A DNA stretch of 55,303 bases from Clostridia bacterium (lineage in GTDB: Bacteria; Bacillota; Clostridia; Oscillospirales; Acutalibacteraceae). The stretch spans positions 1 to 55,303 of the forward strand of contig JAGAPN010000057.1 of assembly GCA_017623235.1 (NCBI GenBank), written 5' to 3'. Under the pieces are notes generated by a model. That model was given only the letters and a program-made list of their open reading frames with translations. It searched no databases and had not been told where the DNA came from. Every line of letters begins with the position of its first letter. Position 1 is the first letter of the stretch. Made by a program: the position numbers and the translations under genes. Below are positions 38,693-51,572 of this stretch, piece by piece.

Positions 38693-40207
38693 ATGCGAAC
38701 GTCCAAGGTAATATTTATAAAAAACGCCCTGCTCCTTACCGTAACGGGGCTTATAATACGTTTTCTCGGTATGCTTTTCAGGGTGTGGCTGGCCTCCGCC
38801 ATAGGCGCCGAGGGTATTGGGCTCTACAATCAGATATTTTCTTTTTATATGCTGGCCTCGGCCTTTGCCTCCACAGGAATAAACACCGCCGTTACCCGTA
38901 TGGTATCTGAGGAGCTGGCCCGAAACAACGGCAAAGGGGTACAAATGGTCCTTACCCGCTGTGTTGCGGTGACCTTAGTTATCGCCCTGGCCTCGGCGGC
39001 GGTAATCTTCTTCGGAGCAGGGTTTATCTCCTCTGTGCTTATAGGGGATGCCAGGGCGGTCTATGCCCTTCGCACCCTGCCTCTCTCCCTGCCTTTTATG
39101 GGACTTTCCTCGTGTCTTAAGGGGTATTTTATTGCCCGTAAACGGTCGGGACCTGCATCTTCCTCCCAGATTTTCGAGCAGCTGGCCCGCATTGGTCTTA
39201 TATTCTTCCTTTTAAACCGCTGTAAGGGCCAGGGCATCGGGGCAGCCTGCAGGGCGGTAATTACGGGGGATTGCGCCGCTGAGGTATGCTCGTTTATCTA
39301 TATCTATATTTCATATCTGATAGATAAATCACATCATCTTGTGGTTGCAGATGGTGGTAGGCCACAATATTCTGTATTATTAAAGCTTCAGCATATTGCT
39401 CTGCCCATAACGGCAGGCAGGTATTTAAACACCCTGCTGCGCACAGCCGAAAATTTGCTGGTTCCAAGGCAGCTGGTGCGTTTTGGAATGAAAAACAGCG
39501 AGGCCCTATCCTCCTTCGGGGTAATCAAGGGTATGGCCCTGCCCCTGATATTCTTTCCTGCCTCCTTTTTAAATGCCCTCTCCACCCTGCTGATACCCGA
39601 AATGAGTGAGGCCGCCGCCTCGGGCCGAGGACTAAAGGTGCGGCTTACCGCCCAACGGTGCATACATATAACCCTTATCTCGGCTCTTCCCGTTTCGGTA
39701 ATTTTCTTTTTCGGCTCGGGACCTATCGGACGGCTGGTTTACGGGGAGCCCTCCTCCTGCGAGATGATACGTCTTTTAGCCCCTATAATACCCCTTATGT
39801 ATATGGATTCGGTTTGTGACGGCCTGCTAAAAGGTCTCGACCAGCAGTTCTCTCTTTTCAGAAACGCTATGCTGGATTCTCTGGCCAGGCTGGGACTGAT
39901 TCTGCTTATACTACCCCGGTTTGGCCTCTACGGCTTTGTAGGTATTATGTATCTCTCAAACTGCTTTACCTGTCTTATGAATTTATTCCGTCTTAAAAAA
40001 ATATCGGGGGCCGAGATAAAATGGGGCCGTTGGCTGGTGGCGCCGGGGGTATTTTCCCTTATATATGGTACTGTTTTCTCAAATTTAGCACAACATATAG
40101 CCACGGGAGATTTAGCCTTTACCCTTGTTTTTACCCTTTCCACCGCCGCATTTTACCTTCTGTCGGTGGTGCTGACAGGTTGCATTACACTTGATGATAT
40201 AAGATAA
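38693..40207 (+). CDS. spoVB: SpoVB-family lipid/polysaccharide flippase
   Basis: 504 residues with about 14 membrane helices, of the MOP superfamily (MurJ/SpoVB/Wzx). The N-terminus (KNALLLTVTGLIIRFLGMLFRVWLASAIGAEGIGLYNQI) and the central KGMALPLIFFPASFLNALSTLLIPEMSEA are typical of SpoVB, which moves lipid-linked precursors during spore cortex formation. GGTGAT precedes ATG 38693. It is one of the few lagging-strand genes here. A GAATATA element 50 nt upstream loosely resembles a SigE -35, but the -10 is poor. A vegetative flippase paralogue is the alternative. Confidence 0.82.
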   Translation: MRTSKVIFIKNALLLTVTGLIIRFLGMLFRVWLASAIGAEGIGLYNQIFSFYMLASAFASTGINTAVTRMVSEELARNNGKGVQMVLTRCVAVTLVIALASAAVIFFGAGFISSVLIGDARAVYALRTLPLSLPFMGLSSCLKGYFIARKRSGPASSSQIFEQLARIGLIFFLLNRCKGQGIGAACRAVITGDCAAEVCSFIYIYISYLIDKSHHLVVADGGRPQYSVLLKLQHIALPITAGRYLNTLLRTAENLLVPRQLVRFGMKNSEALSSFGVIKGMALPLIFFPASFLNALSTLLIPEMSEAAASGRGLKVRLTAQRCIHITLISALPVSVIFFFGSGPIGRLVYGEPSSCEMIRLLAPIIPLMYMDSVCDGLLKGLDQQFSLFRNAMLDSLARLGLILLILPRFGLYGFVGIMYLSNCFTCLMNLFRLKKISGAEIKWGRWLVAPGVFSLIYGTVFSNLAQHIATGDLAFTLVFTLSTAAFYLLSVVLTGCITLDDIR

Positions 40208-40216
40208 AACAGTCGA

Positions 40217-40232
40217 TGTTTCACGTGAAACG
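40217..40232. promoter_or_regulatory. parS site (ParB/Spo0J binding), left
   Basis: TGTTTCACGTGAAACG matches the Bacillus parS consensus TGTTNCACGTGAAACA at 15 of 16 positions. It lies 10 nt after the spoVB stop and about 10 kb from the origin region, where such sites cluster. parA/parB are not in the window. Confidence 0.92.
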
Positions 40233-40299
40233 TCGAGAAGCTCGACACCCACACAATATATCCTTCATATAATCCGCAGCCTGCAGACCCGACCAAAAG
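40217..40299 (+). repeat. Left arm of parS-containing inverted repeat
   Basis: About 83 bp: parS; hairpin GTCGAG / CTCGAC (40232-40246); ACACCCACAC; CATATAATcc; CCTGCAGACCCGACCAAAAG. An inverted copy of all these parts occupies 40843-40930 on the other side of tadA. Confidence 0.88.
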
Positions 40300-40330
40300 C
40301 CCTTTCTTGCGGTGGATGATGTTATATAAC

Positions 40331-40354
40331 GGACGCTTCGTGAAGCGTCCCTAC
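40331..40354. repeat. REP-like hairpin next to the tadA terminator
   Basis: GGACGCTTC / GAAGCGTCC with a 2-nt loop, followed by CTAC (inverse GTAGGGACGC...). A single hairpin module of the dispersed repeat family; a very similar one lies at 55253-55280. Confidence 0.6.
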
Positions 40355-40363
40355 CAGTCACTA

Positions 40364-40390
40364 AAAAAAGACCCTGTCAGGGTCTTTTTT
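40364..40390. terminator. Bidirectional terminator of tadA
   Basis: GACCCT / AGGGTC around GTC, flanked by A and T runs. The tadA stop codon lies inside the hairpin. Confidence 0.85.
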
Positions 40391-40826
40391 CTTTAAAGAA
40401 TTCAGTTAATATTTCGGCGCATTCCCTTTCGCAGATGCCGCCGTACACCTGGGGCCTATGGTTATAGGGTAATGAAAACAGGTCCACTACCGATTCCTTT
40501 GAGGCCGAGCCTGCCTTAAGGTCGTATGCTCCAAAAACAACGGTATCTATCCTGGAGTTGATTATTGCCCCTGCGCACATAGGGCAGGGCTCCAGGGTCA
40601 CGTAGAGCTGACAGCCATCCAGCCGCCAGCTGCCCAGCCTTTCGGCGGCCTGCCTTATGGCCACCACCTCGGCGTGGGCGGTAGGGTCGGAGGTTTCCTC
40701 CCTTTTATTGTACCCTTCCCCTATTATTTCGCCATCCTTGACAACAATGGCTCCAACGGGAACGTCGGTATTTTCCTTTGCTTTCTCGGCCAGCTTTAAG
40801 GCCCGAAGCATAAATTCCTTGTTCAT
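40377..40826 (-). CDS. tadA: tRNA adenosine(34) deaminase
   Basis: 149 residues. Converts A34 to inosine in the tRNA-Arg(ACG) anticodon. Zinc and catalytic motifs HAEVVAIRQA (His, Glu) and PCPMCAGAI (two Cys) are complete, and the C-terminal basic helix is present. ATG 40826 is used: AAAGG precedes it and the N-terminus fits TadA. The frame is open up to 40931, where parS would read as MFHVKR, but that extension is repeat sequence and unlikely to be translated. The gene is enclosed by the two arms of a parS inverted repeat. Confidence 0.93.
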   Translation of the reverse strand: MNKEFMLRALKLAEKAKENTDVPVGAIVVKDGEIIGEGYNKREETSDPTAHAEVVAIRQAAERLGSWRLDGCQLYVTLEPCPMCAGAIINSRIDTVVFGAYDLKAGSASKESVVDLFSLPYNHRPQVYGGICERECAEILTEFFKEKRP

Positions 40827-40842
40827 ATCTTTTTCCTTTTCA

Positions 40843-40930
40843 CTTTTGGTCGGGTCTGCAGGCCGTGAATTATATAAAAAACATATTCCCCGTGTGGGTG
40901 TCGAGGCTCTCGACCGTTTCACGTGAAACA
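40843..40930 (-). repeat. Right arm of parS-containing inverted repeat
   Basis: About 88 bp, inverted relative to 40217-40299, with the same order read inward: parS, GTCGAG / CTCGAC hairpin with a different loop (AGC instead of AAG), ACACCCACAC, TATATAAT, CCTGCAGACCCGACCAAAAG. Differences lie mainly in loops and in the AT-rich centre. It ends about 10 nt before the tadA ribosome binding site. Confidence 0.88.
40915..40930. promoter_or_regulatory. parS site, right
   Basis: CGTTTCACGTGAAACA, 15 of 16 matches to parS. It directly abuts the stop codon of the CPBP protease gene (TAA at 40931-40933). Confidence 0.92.
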
Positions 40931-41938
40931 TTACATATTCATTTCAATTATACCCAGCACCAGGGTGACAACAATAGAAATAATAATTATCGGTGAGGAG
41001 AAAAAGGCCGAAACCCTTTCCTTTACGGTCATTACCATATCTGCATTTTCCAGGGCGTAGTCTTCTTTTTTCTTGTTTCTCATAAGGTAAAGTCCTATAA
41101 AGAAGCACAGGAAGCAGAGAACAAAATAAATTGCGGTGATGCCCGACTGCAGATAAACCGAGTCAATCTGTCGAAACAGCAGGTCCAGACCTACCGAAAT
41201 AAAGTTATTAATAAAGTGAATAATCACTCCGGTCCACAGGGAGCCTGTTTTAATAACGGCGTAGCCCAGGGCAATACCCACCACAAAGCCAAAGGGTATC
41301 TGCACGAAGTTTCTGTGCATCAGACCGAACATAGCCGCCGATATACCTATAGCAACCCCGTCACCGTACTTGCGAAGGACACCCATAACGGCGCCTCGCA
41401 TAGCAAACTCCTCCACCAGGGCGGGGGTAAAGGCGGTAGCCATTATAGCCAGCAGGGCGCCGAAAACGCCGCCCGGTATCTCCAGCTCGGGGGCCGAATA
41501 CTCAATTCCAAAGCCTGCAAATATATCTGCAATACTGCTCGTTGCAATATTTGCAAAGGCGCAAAAGCCGATACTGATAAGAATCAGCGGCAGAATCATA
41601 CCCTTATTGGGCTTGCCCAGGGGTATGAGATTTCTCATTTTTTGGGGGGAGTTTGCCACCACTATAAGATAGGGCGGCACAAACATCAGAATAGACACCA
41701 CTATCTGAATTATCTGCATTATGGCAGGGTCCTCTGTGATAGCTATTATCTCGGCCTGGGAAAAGCCCAGACCCTGCAACACCGCCATAAAAGGAAGGCT
41801 CCAGAAAAAGGCCACCGCCATCATAACAAGGTAGGCAAGGCCGATATGGGCCGCAACGCTTCTGATGCCTCTCTTCTCCTGTCTTTTTACTATACTTTTT
41901 TCAGTTTCAAAAACCCCGTAGTTTGGATAATTGTACAA
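40931..41938 (-). CDS. CPBP-family intramembrane metalloprotease
   Basis: 335 residues, about eight membrane helices. The Abi/CAAX protease motifs are in order: EEFAMRGAVMGVLRKYG (EExxxR), FGLMHRNFVQ (FxxxH) and HFINNF. Members cleave within the membrane and serve in bacteriocin self-immunity, peptide maturation or unknown roles; no partner is nearby to decide. The start is TTG at 41938, strongly supported by GGGAGG seven bases upstream. A disordered charged N-terminus precedes the first helix. Confidence 0.86.
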   Translation of the reverse strand: MYNYPNYGVFETEKSIVKRQEKRGIRSVAAHIGLAYLVMMAVAFFWSLPFMAVLQGLGFSQAEIIAITEDPAIMQIIQIVVSILMFVPPYLIVVANSPQKMRNLIPLGKPNKGMILPLILISIGFCAFANIATSSIADIFAGFGIEYSAPELEIPGGVFGALLAIMATAFTPALVEEFAMRGAVMGVLRKYGDGVAIGISAAMFGLMHRNFVQIPFGFVVGIALGYAVIKTGSLWTGVIIHFINNFISVGLDLLFRQIDSVYLQSGITAIYFVLCFLCFFIGLYLMRNKKKEDYALENADMVMTVKERVSAFFSSPIIIISIVVTLVLGIIEMNM

Positions 41939-46717: not shown

Positions 46718-47200
46718 TTATTTGTTATCGTTAACCCACATTATGGGATTTTCTTCAATATACCTGTAATGCTCTAAATAGTCCTTTTCTCCCCTAATAA
46801 TATGGTCGGCAAAGGACCTCTGCCAAATGGGCTTTCCAATTTCTTTATTACACAACCTTTTAAACCCCGATATTGTTCTTGATAACACAGAATTTGTAGG
46901 GGACGGCGTCCCCGACGTCCCATCAAGATTATCTATAAATAATAATAAATGAATATGGTCAGGCATAATAACGTACTTTTCTACCGTGACTTTTTCTGCA
47001 TTATTTATAGAAAGGATATGTTTTTCTACTTTTTTCCCTGTTTCTGTGAGTTCGGTAATCGGGGCGTCGAGGACGCCGCCCCCTACAATTTTACAAAGAA
47101 TTTTTTCTCTTTTCTTAACACATATAGTCACAAAATATAATCCGTTACTGCTGTAGTCGAATTCTTTTTTGCGCAGGGGTTTTCTGGATTTTATTTCCAT
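46718..47200 (-). CDS. REP-associated tyrosine transposase (RAYT)
   Basis: 160 residues of the Y1 transposase / TnpA_REP family. The HUH motif is HIH (82-84) in VIMPDHIHLLLF, with the probable nucleophilic Tyr in HYRYIEENP (145-147) and the family segment WQRSFADHIIRGEKDYLEHYRYI. It is a stand-alone gene lacking IS ends. Its ATG shares a base with the remB stop (TAATG), and it ends 20 nt before gyrB, so it is transcribed with the replication operon. Two variable loops (residues about 38-47 and 93-103) are encoded by GC-rich hairpins resembling the intergenic repeats. Confidence 0.9.
   Translation of the reverse strand: MEIKSRKPLRKKEFDYSSNGLYFVTICVKKREKILCKIVGGGVLDAPITELTETGKKVEKHILSINNAEKVTVEKYVIMPDHIHLLLFIDNLDGTSGTPSPTNSVLSRTISGFKRLCNKEIGKPIWQRSFADHIIRGEKDYLEHYRYIEENPIMWVNDNK
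46893..46924. repeat. REP-like hairpin inside the transposase gene, copy 1
   Basis: TTGTAGGGGACGGCGTCCCC with a GGGGAC / GTCCCC stem (46899-46913). It opens with the same TTGTAGGGG as the intergenic copies and stays in frame, encoding the loop DGTSGTPSPTN. Confidence 0.65.
47061..47090. repeat. REP-like hairpin inside the transposase gene, copy 2
   Basis: A GGGGCG / CGCCCC stem with an inner GGCGTC / GACGCC alternative, ending CCCTACAATT, the inverse of AATTGTAGGG. It encodes the glycine-rich loop KIVGGGVLDA in frame. Orientation is opposite to copy 1. Confidence 0.65.
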
Positions 47201-50258: not shown

Positions 50259-51572
50259 TTATTCTGTTTTAAGATTTTTTATAATATCGTCAATAAGCTC
50301 TTTTTCGTGGGGATTTTCTTTTAGGTGGGCCTCAATCTTCTTTACGGCGTAAAGGACGGTGGTGTGGTCCTTGCCGAAGGCCTCGCCTATAGGCTTATAG
50401 CCCAGCTCGGTGGTTTCCTTGGCAATATACATTGCAATCTGCCTTGCCTTTGCCAGCTCAGCCGTCTTTCTCTTGGAGATAATCTCCTTCTCGGATACGT
50501 CGTAGGACCTGGCCACCTCGGTAATAATCTGCTCAATCTTAATAGGCTCGGGCTTGGTGTCATTGACCACCTCACGAACGATAGACTGAACTATAACCAG
50601 GGTGGGGGTGTGGTTCTGTATCTGAATATAGGCCTGGAGCTTTTTAACAACACCCTCAAGCTGACGGGTATTCATCTTAATATGCTCGGCAATATAGTAA
50701 ACGATATTTTCGTCCAGGGTGATGCCCAGGCTTTCGGCCTTCTTCTTGATAATACCAACCCTGGTTTCGTAGTCGGGGGGAGTAATATCGGCCAGCAGGG
50801 ACATTTCCAGACGGTTTCTGATGCGGTCATCCAGGGTCTTAACGTCCTTGGGAGGCCTGTCCATAGTAAATACCAGCTGCTTGTCACCCTGGTGAAGGGC
50901 GTTGAAGGTGTTGAAGAATTCCTCCTGGGTCTGCTCCTTACCGGCGATAAACTGAATATCGTCAATAAGAAGAACGTCCAGATTTCTGAACTTGTTTCTA
51001 AAGAGGTCGGCAGTACCTGTATGTATAGCCTCGATGAGCTGATTCATAAAATCCTCACAGCGGATATACTCGATAATCTTCTCGGGGAACTTCTGCTTTA
51101 TACGGTTTCTTATAGCCAGCAAAAGATGGGTTTTACCAACACCCGAGGGACCGTAGATAACCAGGGGGTTATATACGATTTTCGGACTGTCGGCCACCGC
51201 CATAGATGCGGCGTGGGCAAAACGGTTACAGGAGCCCATAATAAAGTTATCAAAGGTAAAGCTGTCCTCAAAGGAGCTGTTGGCGGGGGAAACCTTGTTT
51301 TGAAGGATTTTTCCGTTTTCATCCTCCACCACGATTTTTATATCAATATCAATGCCCATAATCTCCTTAAAGGAGGGAACGATAATGTGCATATAGTTGG
51401 ACTCAATAATCTGCTTTTTATAGTCGGAATAAATTCCCAGTATAATTTCGCCGTTGCGCACCTCTAAAAGATGCAGGTCTTTAAACCAGACGTTAAAGGA
51501 AATTTCGGTCATTCTTGATTTAAGCTCGGCGCAGACGGCCTCCCAGATATCGGTAAGGGACTCGATAGGCAT
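50259..51572 (-). CDS. dnaA: Chromosomal replication initiator DnaA
   Basis: 437 residues. Domain I (1-90) for partner binding; a short linker; AAA+ domain III with Walker A GPSGVGKTHLL and Walker B VLLIDDIQF; DNA-binding domain IV with the signature GKDHTTVLYAVKKIE. Binds DnaA boxes and melts the origin. GGAG-type site before ATG 51572. It heads the operon dnaA-dnaN-yaaA-recF-remB-RAYT-gyrB-gyrA, although separate promoters are likely further down. Confidence 0.97.
   Translation of the reverse strand: MPIESLTDIWEAVCAELKSRMTEISFNVWFKDLHLLEVRNGEIILGIYSDYKKQIIESNYMHIIVPSFKEIMGIDIDIKIVVEDENGKILQNKVSPANSSFEDSFTFDNFIMGSCNRFAHAASMAVADSPKIVYNPLVIYGPSGVGKTHLLLAIRNRIKQKFPEKIIEYIRCEDFMNQLIEAIHTGTADLFRNKFRNLDVLLIDDIQFIAGKEQTQEEFFNTFNALHQGDKQLVFTMDRPPKDVKTLDDRIRNRLEMSLLADITPPDYETRVGIIKKKAESLGITLDENIVYYIAEHIKMNTRQLEGVVKKLQAYIQIQNHTPTLVIVQSIVREVVNDTKPEPIKIEQIITEVARSYDVSEKEIISKRKTAELAKARQIAMYIAKETTELGYKPIGEAFGKDHTTVLYAVKKIEAHLKENPHEKELIDDIIKNLKTE

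Follow-up and report, generated by a model that had tools for sequence, protein, structure and literature searches.

The closest described counterparts of the locus reported here are the chromosomal parS sites of ParABS systems, integron attC sites, MITEs, and REP elements with their RAYT transposases. Integron attC sites carry a hairpin of variable sequence that is kept by structure, and in this they resemble the repeat family described below, whose hairpin is likewise variable and kept by structure. With MITEs, the repeat shares a small size, a noncoding nature, and dispersal, and a minority of its copies have flanking direct repeats. It is also short, dispersed, and headed by a palindrome, as REP elements are; however, no GTAG/CGTC foot was seen by eye in its aligned copies and their upstream flanks, its stem sequence is free (six of six pairs have changed on both sides), whereas that of REP elements is conserved, and it is low in copy number, with a long nonpalindromic box and tail. 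The REP dimers of some species are reported to be inserted within palindromes (PMC3733652).

The window, by which we mean the whole 55,303-nucleotide stretch of clostridial DNA analyzed here, carries two sites that resemble chromosomal parS in being palindromic, in lying close to oriC, and in belonging to a genome that encodes ParB. They differ from it in an extra 70-bp flank, which is absent at most parS sites of the genus. Among the literature matches listed for parS and for REP and RAYT elements, neither this arrangement nor the repeat is described in a title or in the opening lines of an abstract. We propose that the extra DNA is most likely a dispersed repeat with a hairpin head that came to rest beside the parS sites and does not belong to parS itself. 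The repeat family is the more novel part of the locus, the parS pair the less so, and it holds a warning: a conserved-looking cassette at a centromere site can be a palindrome-preferring repeat.

The parS pair around tadA

The origin region in the window comprises dnaA (positions 50259-51572, 9 to 11 kb from the parS sites), dnaN, recF, a RAYT-like gene, gyrB, gyrA, and the genes for a CAAX protease, the deaminase TadA, and a MurJ/MATE flippase; gyrA and gyrB were named by eye from the sequence. The tadA gene occupies 40377..40826 on the minus strand, with its start at the ATG of MNKEFML; a longer open reading frame, extending to 40931, would begin with MFHVK within parS. Upstream on the same strand lies the gene for the CAAX (Rce1-like) protease (40931..41938), and the MurJ/MATE-type flippase gene (38693..40207, plus strand) is convergent with tadA. 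A terminator-like 13-bp inverted repeat with A/T runs is found at the tadA 3' end (40364..40390), and the tadA-murJ gap also holds a GTAG-tagged REP palindrome (GTAGGGACGCTTCACGAAGCGTCC; 40331..40354, minus strand).

Both parS sites, recognized by sequence match and genus conservation, agree at 15 of 16 positions with the palindromic 16-bp parS consensus. They lie on the plus strand at 40217..40232 (murJ side) and 40915..40930 (CAAX side), 698 bp apart from start to start. A search of the window with the 16-mer, allowing up to three mismatches, returned these two sites, compared with a mean of 0.13 sites over 100 shuffles, of which one reached 2. In the 1.61-Mb assembly, which is 71% complete, exact parS 14-mers and TTTCACGTGAAA 12-mers occur only at the two window sites.

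The arms that contain them, 40216-40299 and 40843-40931, bracket tadA in inverted orientation and are 84% alike; with the left arm as the query against the whole assembly, the right arm was recovered at 84% over 40843-40931 (E of 7e-21). Identity is 100% between 40216-40232 and 40915-40931, 91% between 40232-40254 and 40892-40914, and 84% between 40255-40299 and 40843-40887. Common to both arms are the stem GTCGAG/CTCGAC, ACACCCACAC, a TATAAT core, CCTGCAGACCCGACCAAAAG, and an identical tail of 20 nt; the hairpin loops differ (AAG versus AGC). On the left, the repeat copy (40232..40299, plus strand) opens with GTCGAG-AAG-CTCGAC straight after the parS 14-mer; on the right (40843..40914, minus strand), GTCGAG-AGC-CTCGAC lies 1 nt past it. 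The original prediction of paired inverted arms with 15/16 parS sites, a hairpin, and a TATAAT core therefore holds, as does its spacing of about 700 bp. Its description of the sites as facing each other is true of the flanks and not of parS itself; because parS is palindromic, the facing orientation is carried by the flank.

Exact 14-mer parS sites occur in 8 of the 10 genomes of the genus, and the 12-mer gives the same 8. In seven of them, each of the two gaps flanking tadA, toward the CAAX gene and toward murJ, holds one parS; the pair around tadA is thus conserved in the genus. In the eighth, G006, both sites are on the CAAX side, 26 bp apart (this locus is present on two similar contigs and was counted once), and G001 has two further parS 12-mers elsewhere, with imperfect ends. 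G002 (93% complete and encoding ParB) has no exact site but two one-mismatch sites, on two other contigs, and no match to tadA, the CAAX gene, or gyrA was found within the 20 kb fetched around its murJ. G008 (68% complete) has neither exact nor one-mismatch sites. In the regions fetched from other genera, usually 18 to 20 kb, parS is not placed around tadA; those of G019 and G026 contain tadA and a CAAX gene, separated from parS by more than 1 kb. All 10 genomes of the genus encode ParB, and a parA-parB-serS cluster was recognized by eye. On this comparison of sequences, the oriC-proximal parS pair around tadA is an old, maintained feature of the genus, with a predicted ordinary parS function.

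A second ParB-family protein is encoded beside an rsmG-like gene in 9 of the 10 genomes (genes named by eye). This is the usual place of Noc, and we take the protein to be Noc-like by position. In the window's own genome, this gene (G000:C77:19904-20134) adjoins rsmG-like and mnmG-like genes.

A dispersed repeat with a hairpin head

The flank belongs to a repeat that measures 68 to 72 nt as modeled and consists of a hairpin head of free sequence (a 6-bp stem and a 3-nt loop), an AAACG-type box, and a CCCGACC tail. Seven copies were aligned, and covariance models R1, R2, and R3 were then used for searches. R1 gave at least 24 matches with an E value no higher than 0.01, spread over 5 of the 10 genus genomes (at least 4 in the window's genome, G000, 2 in G001, 6 in G003, 2 in G005, and 10 in G007), and separate searches found a 25th copy, beside parS in G003. 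R3, built with copies from G019, G098, G113, and G165, gave at least 54 matches in 10 of 32 chosen genomes. At least 29 of these are within the genus (at least 4 in G000, 2 in G001, 7 in G003, 2 in G005, and 14 in G007); outside it, there are at least 18 in G165, at least 3 in G113, at least 2 in G098, at least 1 in G019, and one marginal match in G029 (E of 0.0099). The R1 and R3 counts are lower bounds because at most 150 first-look candidates per genome were scored. Among the candidates scored, the five other genus genomes have no R1 or R3 match; these match-free genomes are partly incomplete MAGs (G004, 79%; G006, 55%; G008, 68%), and G009 is 97% complete. Under stricter filters, R2 found a match in 5 of 150 family genomes, the window's genome among them. 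A search with an 18-mer of the tail, from which own-genome records were possibly excluded, returned three records, two in unrelated organisms and the third apparently G005.

Most copies lie away from parS; those on contigs C57 and C14 of the window's genome have no parS in their 3-kb loci. Two tandem copies occupy the dnaA-dnaN gap of G003 (L067:19394-19552).

The expectation that the hairpin is kept as structure as its sequence changes proved correct. In 29 rows, including four weak matches, 95.6% of hairpin cells are paired, compared with 63.0% after shuffling and 31.9 to 51.9% after sliding, in an alignment fitted to the structure, which favors pairing. All six stem pairs covary, and RNAalifold, applied to a fitted alignment of 25 copies, predicted five of the six by itself. 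A consensus second stem was considered as well, and RNAalifold retained the head hairpin only. Copies remote from parS retain the hairpin as well.

Such a structure could be that of a functional RNA or a leader that affects the tadA or murJ transcripts, and the right arm does fall in the tadA leader. We regard this explanation as very improbable: the window arms fold modestly (z of -1.6 and -2.6), although two longer versions in G165 fold better than shuffles (z of -4.2 and -3.4), and copies occur in varied contexts, on either side of parS. Nor does Rfam place any family on the window at gathering scores; near the arms, matches are subthreshold, the best being STnc420 (32.6 bits versus 70) on the terminator-like repeat. 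In 13 loci with family-level copies, five tRNAs and one 6S RNA scored above gathering, none on the repeat.

By eye, many G165 copies are longer, about 130 to 150 nt, with a second terminal hairpin (GGCGGTTCGCCGCC-like) and thus a hairpin near each end, and several of them come after a partial GTAG-type REP.

Placement of copies beside parS, terminators, and tRNA genes

Positions were surveyed for 51 of the 54 R3 copies, with three partial G007 matches left out, and the expected adjacency was derived from feature density in the same loci. In 6 of 51 copies, the hairpin end has an intact parS no more than 2 nt away (0.013 expected); 2 copies have a terminator T-run that close (0.06 expected), and 2 have an ARAGORN tRNA end (0.004 expected). 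The parS-abutting copies, two in the window, two in G005, and one each in G001 and G003, are nonindependent events, with a P value inflated by relatedness, and the terminator and tRNA classes are small. A recognized parS, terminator, or tRNA end is at the hairpin boundary in only 10 of the 51. By eye, the L134 copy follows a T-run, and the L153, L160, and L187 copies come after CCA-type ends without an ARAGORN call. At L150:1572-1648 and L163:1407-1500, the repeat starts at the base after the tRNA-Met and tRNA-Ser genes, and another TCCACCA is found 21 to 22 nt past its tail.

Because the hairpin end lies against parS far above chance, and against some terminators and tRNAs, insertion beside palindromic or hairpin DNA best fits the cassette. 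We infer a mobile repeat with a target preference: its hairpin would tend to end up next to palindromes and hairpin-forming DNA, most of all parS, with a few terminators and tRNA 3' ends. Each window parS has one copy of this small, noncoding, dispersed element beside it, and the inverted arrangement around tadA would follow from both copies lying between their parS and tadA. Should the target preference be real, small mobile repeats would use parS as a landing site.

The adjacency and the kept structure could also mark a functional extended parS, the hairpin and tail serving to dock a partner of ParB or to aid loading. The original prediction had entertained such a standing part of parS, which we now consider highly unlikely. 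The 8 parS-bearing genomes of the genus have 16 sites in all; a model-detected copy directly abuts 6 of these, on either side of the palindrome, and the other 10 have none abutting. The parS-bearing G004, G006, and G009 have no R1 or R3 match, either genome-wide (at most 150 first-look candidates scored) or at their parS loci. Across 32 parS-region loci (4 from these three genomes, 26 from other genera, and 2 from other G001 contigs), R3 found nothing up to an E of 1, and R2 found one weak match (E of 0.25); in G165, G113, and G098, no model match adjoins parS. Other parS sites thus largely lack the flank, as had been anticipated for a duplication without function, though the flank recurs as a dispersed repeat.

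In G004, 18 nt separate parS from the tadA ATG, a stretch in which the window has a 72-nt copy. By eye, a GTAG REP and a degenerate tail accompany the CAAX-side parS of G003; the CAAX-side parS of G009 has a different hairpin 2 nt away, present as a single copy across six G009 loci. The G007 hairpin directly adjoins half a parS (TGTTTCACGTG), and 12 nt past the tail an intact parS begins.

A hairpin family with free stem sequence would call for a mover that reads DNA shape. Somewhat speculatively, and at well under even probability, the family may be an undescribed class of mobile repeat, its hairpin recognized by shape and not by sequence, that inserts at the edges of palindromic DNA such as parS, terminators, and tRNA 3' ends. 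If so, the G007 parS would have been split, with the intact copy left by target duplication, and insertions of this kind could raise the number of parS sites or shift their positions.

Probable copying between parS sites and a candidate mover

Outside the hairpin, the two window copies are 81% alike, as are the two G005 copies. Compared with parS-linked copies of other genomes, those of the window and G005 are 51 to 68% alike: window copies are 65 to 68% like those of G005, 61 to 67% like that of G001, and 52 to 58% like those beside parS in G003 and G007. They are 72 to 75% like the C57 copy of their own genome, which lies away from parS. Of the copies compared, the two in the window resemble each other most, which makes it probable that one derives from the other. 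The likeness of arms suggests that, in each lineage, the flank of one parS site was copied to the other or that gene conversion took place between them. On the insertion reading, the second window copy would have been made from the first by transposition or parS-anchored gene conversion.

The same likeness within G000 and G005 is what a segmental inverted duplication would leave, with the whole parS-plus-flank unit copied across tadA and the arms kept alike by later gene conversion, and the shared stem and ACACCCACAC of the window arms agree with it. The second window copy may have arisen in this way; as an account of the locus, however, duplication seems unlikely. The parS pairs of G004 and G009 have no flank, and in G001 the models detect a copy beside just one of the two sites. 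The copy in the tadA-murJ gap lies between parS and tadA in G000 and G005 but between parS and murJ in G001 and G003. The G005 hairpins differ from each other in stem sequence, and parS-free copies exist. As for the earlier suggestion of a duplicated unit, the flank is more than a local duplication: it is a dispersed repeat.

In a tree of the 10 genus genomes, built from joined alignments of the ParA, ParB, and SerS proteins, the match-free G009 and G008 fall among repeat carriers, which implies loss or repeated gain if the absences are real. Several node supports are 0.69 to 0.85, and the position of G007 rests on ParA and SerS, its ParB part being 11 amino acids.

Direct repeats scoring at least 11 flank 5 of the 51 copies; when flanks were mispaired, 22 of the first 1500 reached that score. 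One G007 flank sequence is common to three of the five, which are therefore not independent; a fourth is the G007 parS copy. No clear target duplication surrounds the window copies, their best direct-repeat scores being 7 and 5.

A weak candidate for the mover is the RAYT-like Y1 transposase gene between gyrB and recF (46718..47200, minus strand), which scores 71.9 bits with NCBIfam REP_Tyr_transpos, below the cutoff of 80. Y1_Tnp matches occur in 4 of 5 genus carriers and in 1 of 5 genus genomes without a copy. This distribution fits RAYT poorly as the mover: G165, with at least 18 copies, and G005, also with copies, have no Y1_Tnp match, and G009 has two matches and no copy. The RAYT-like reading frame itself contains two oppositely oriented REP-like palindromes, at about 46896-46921 and 47061-47085 (by eye).
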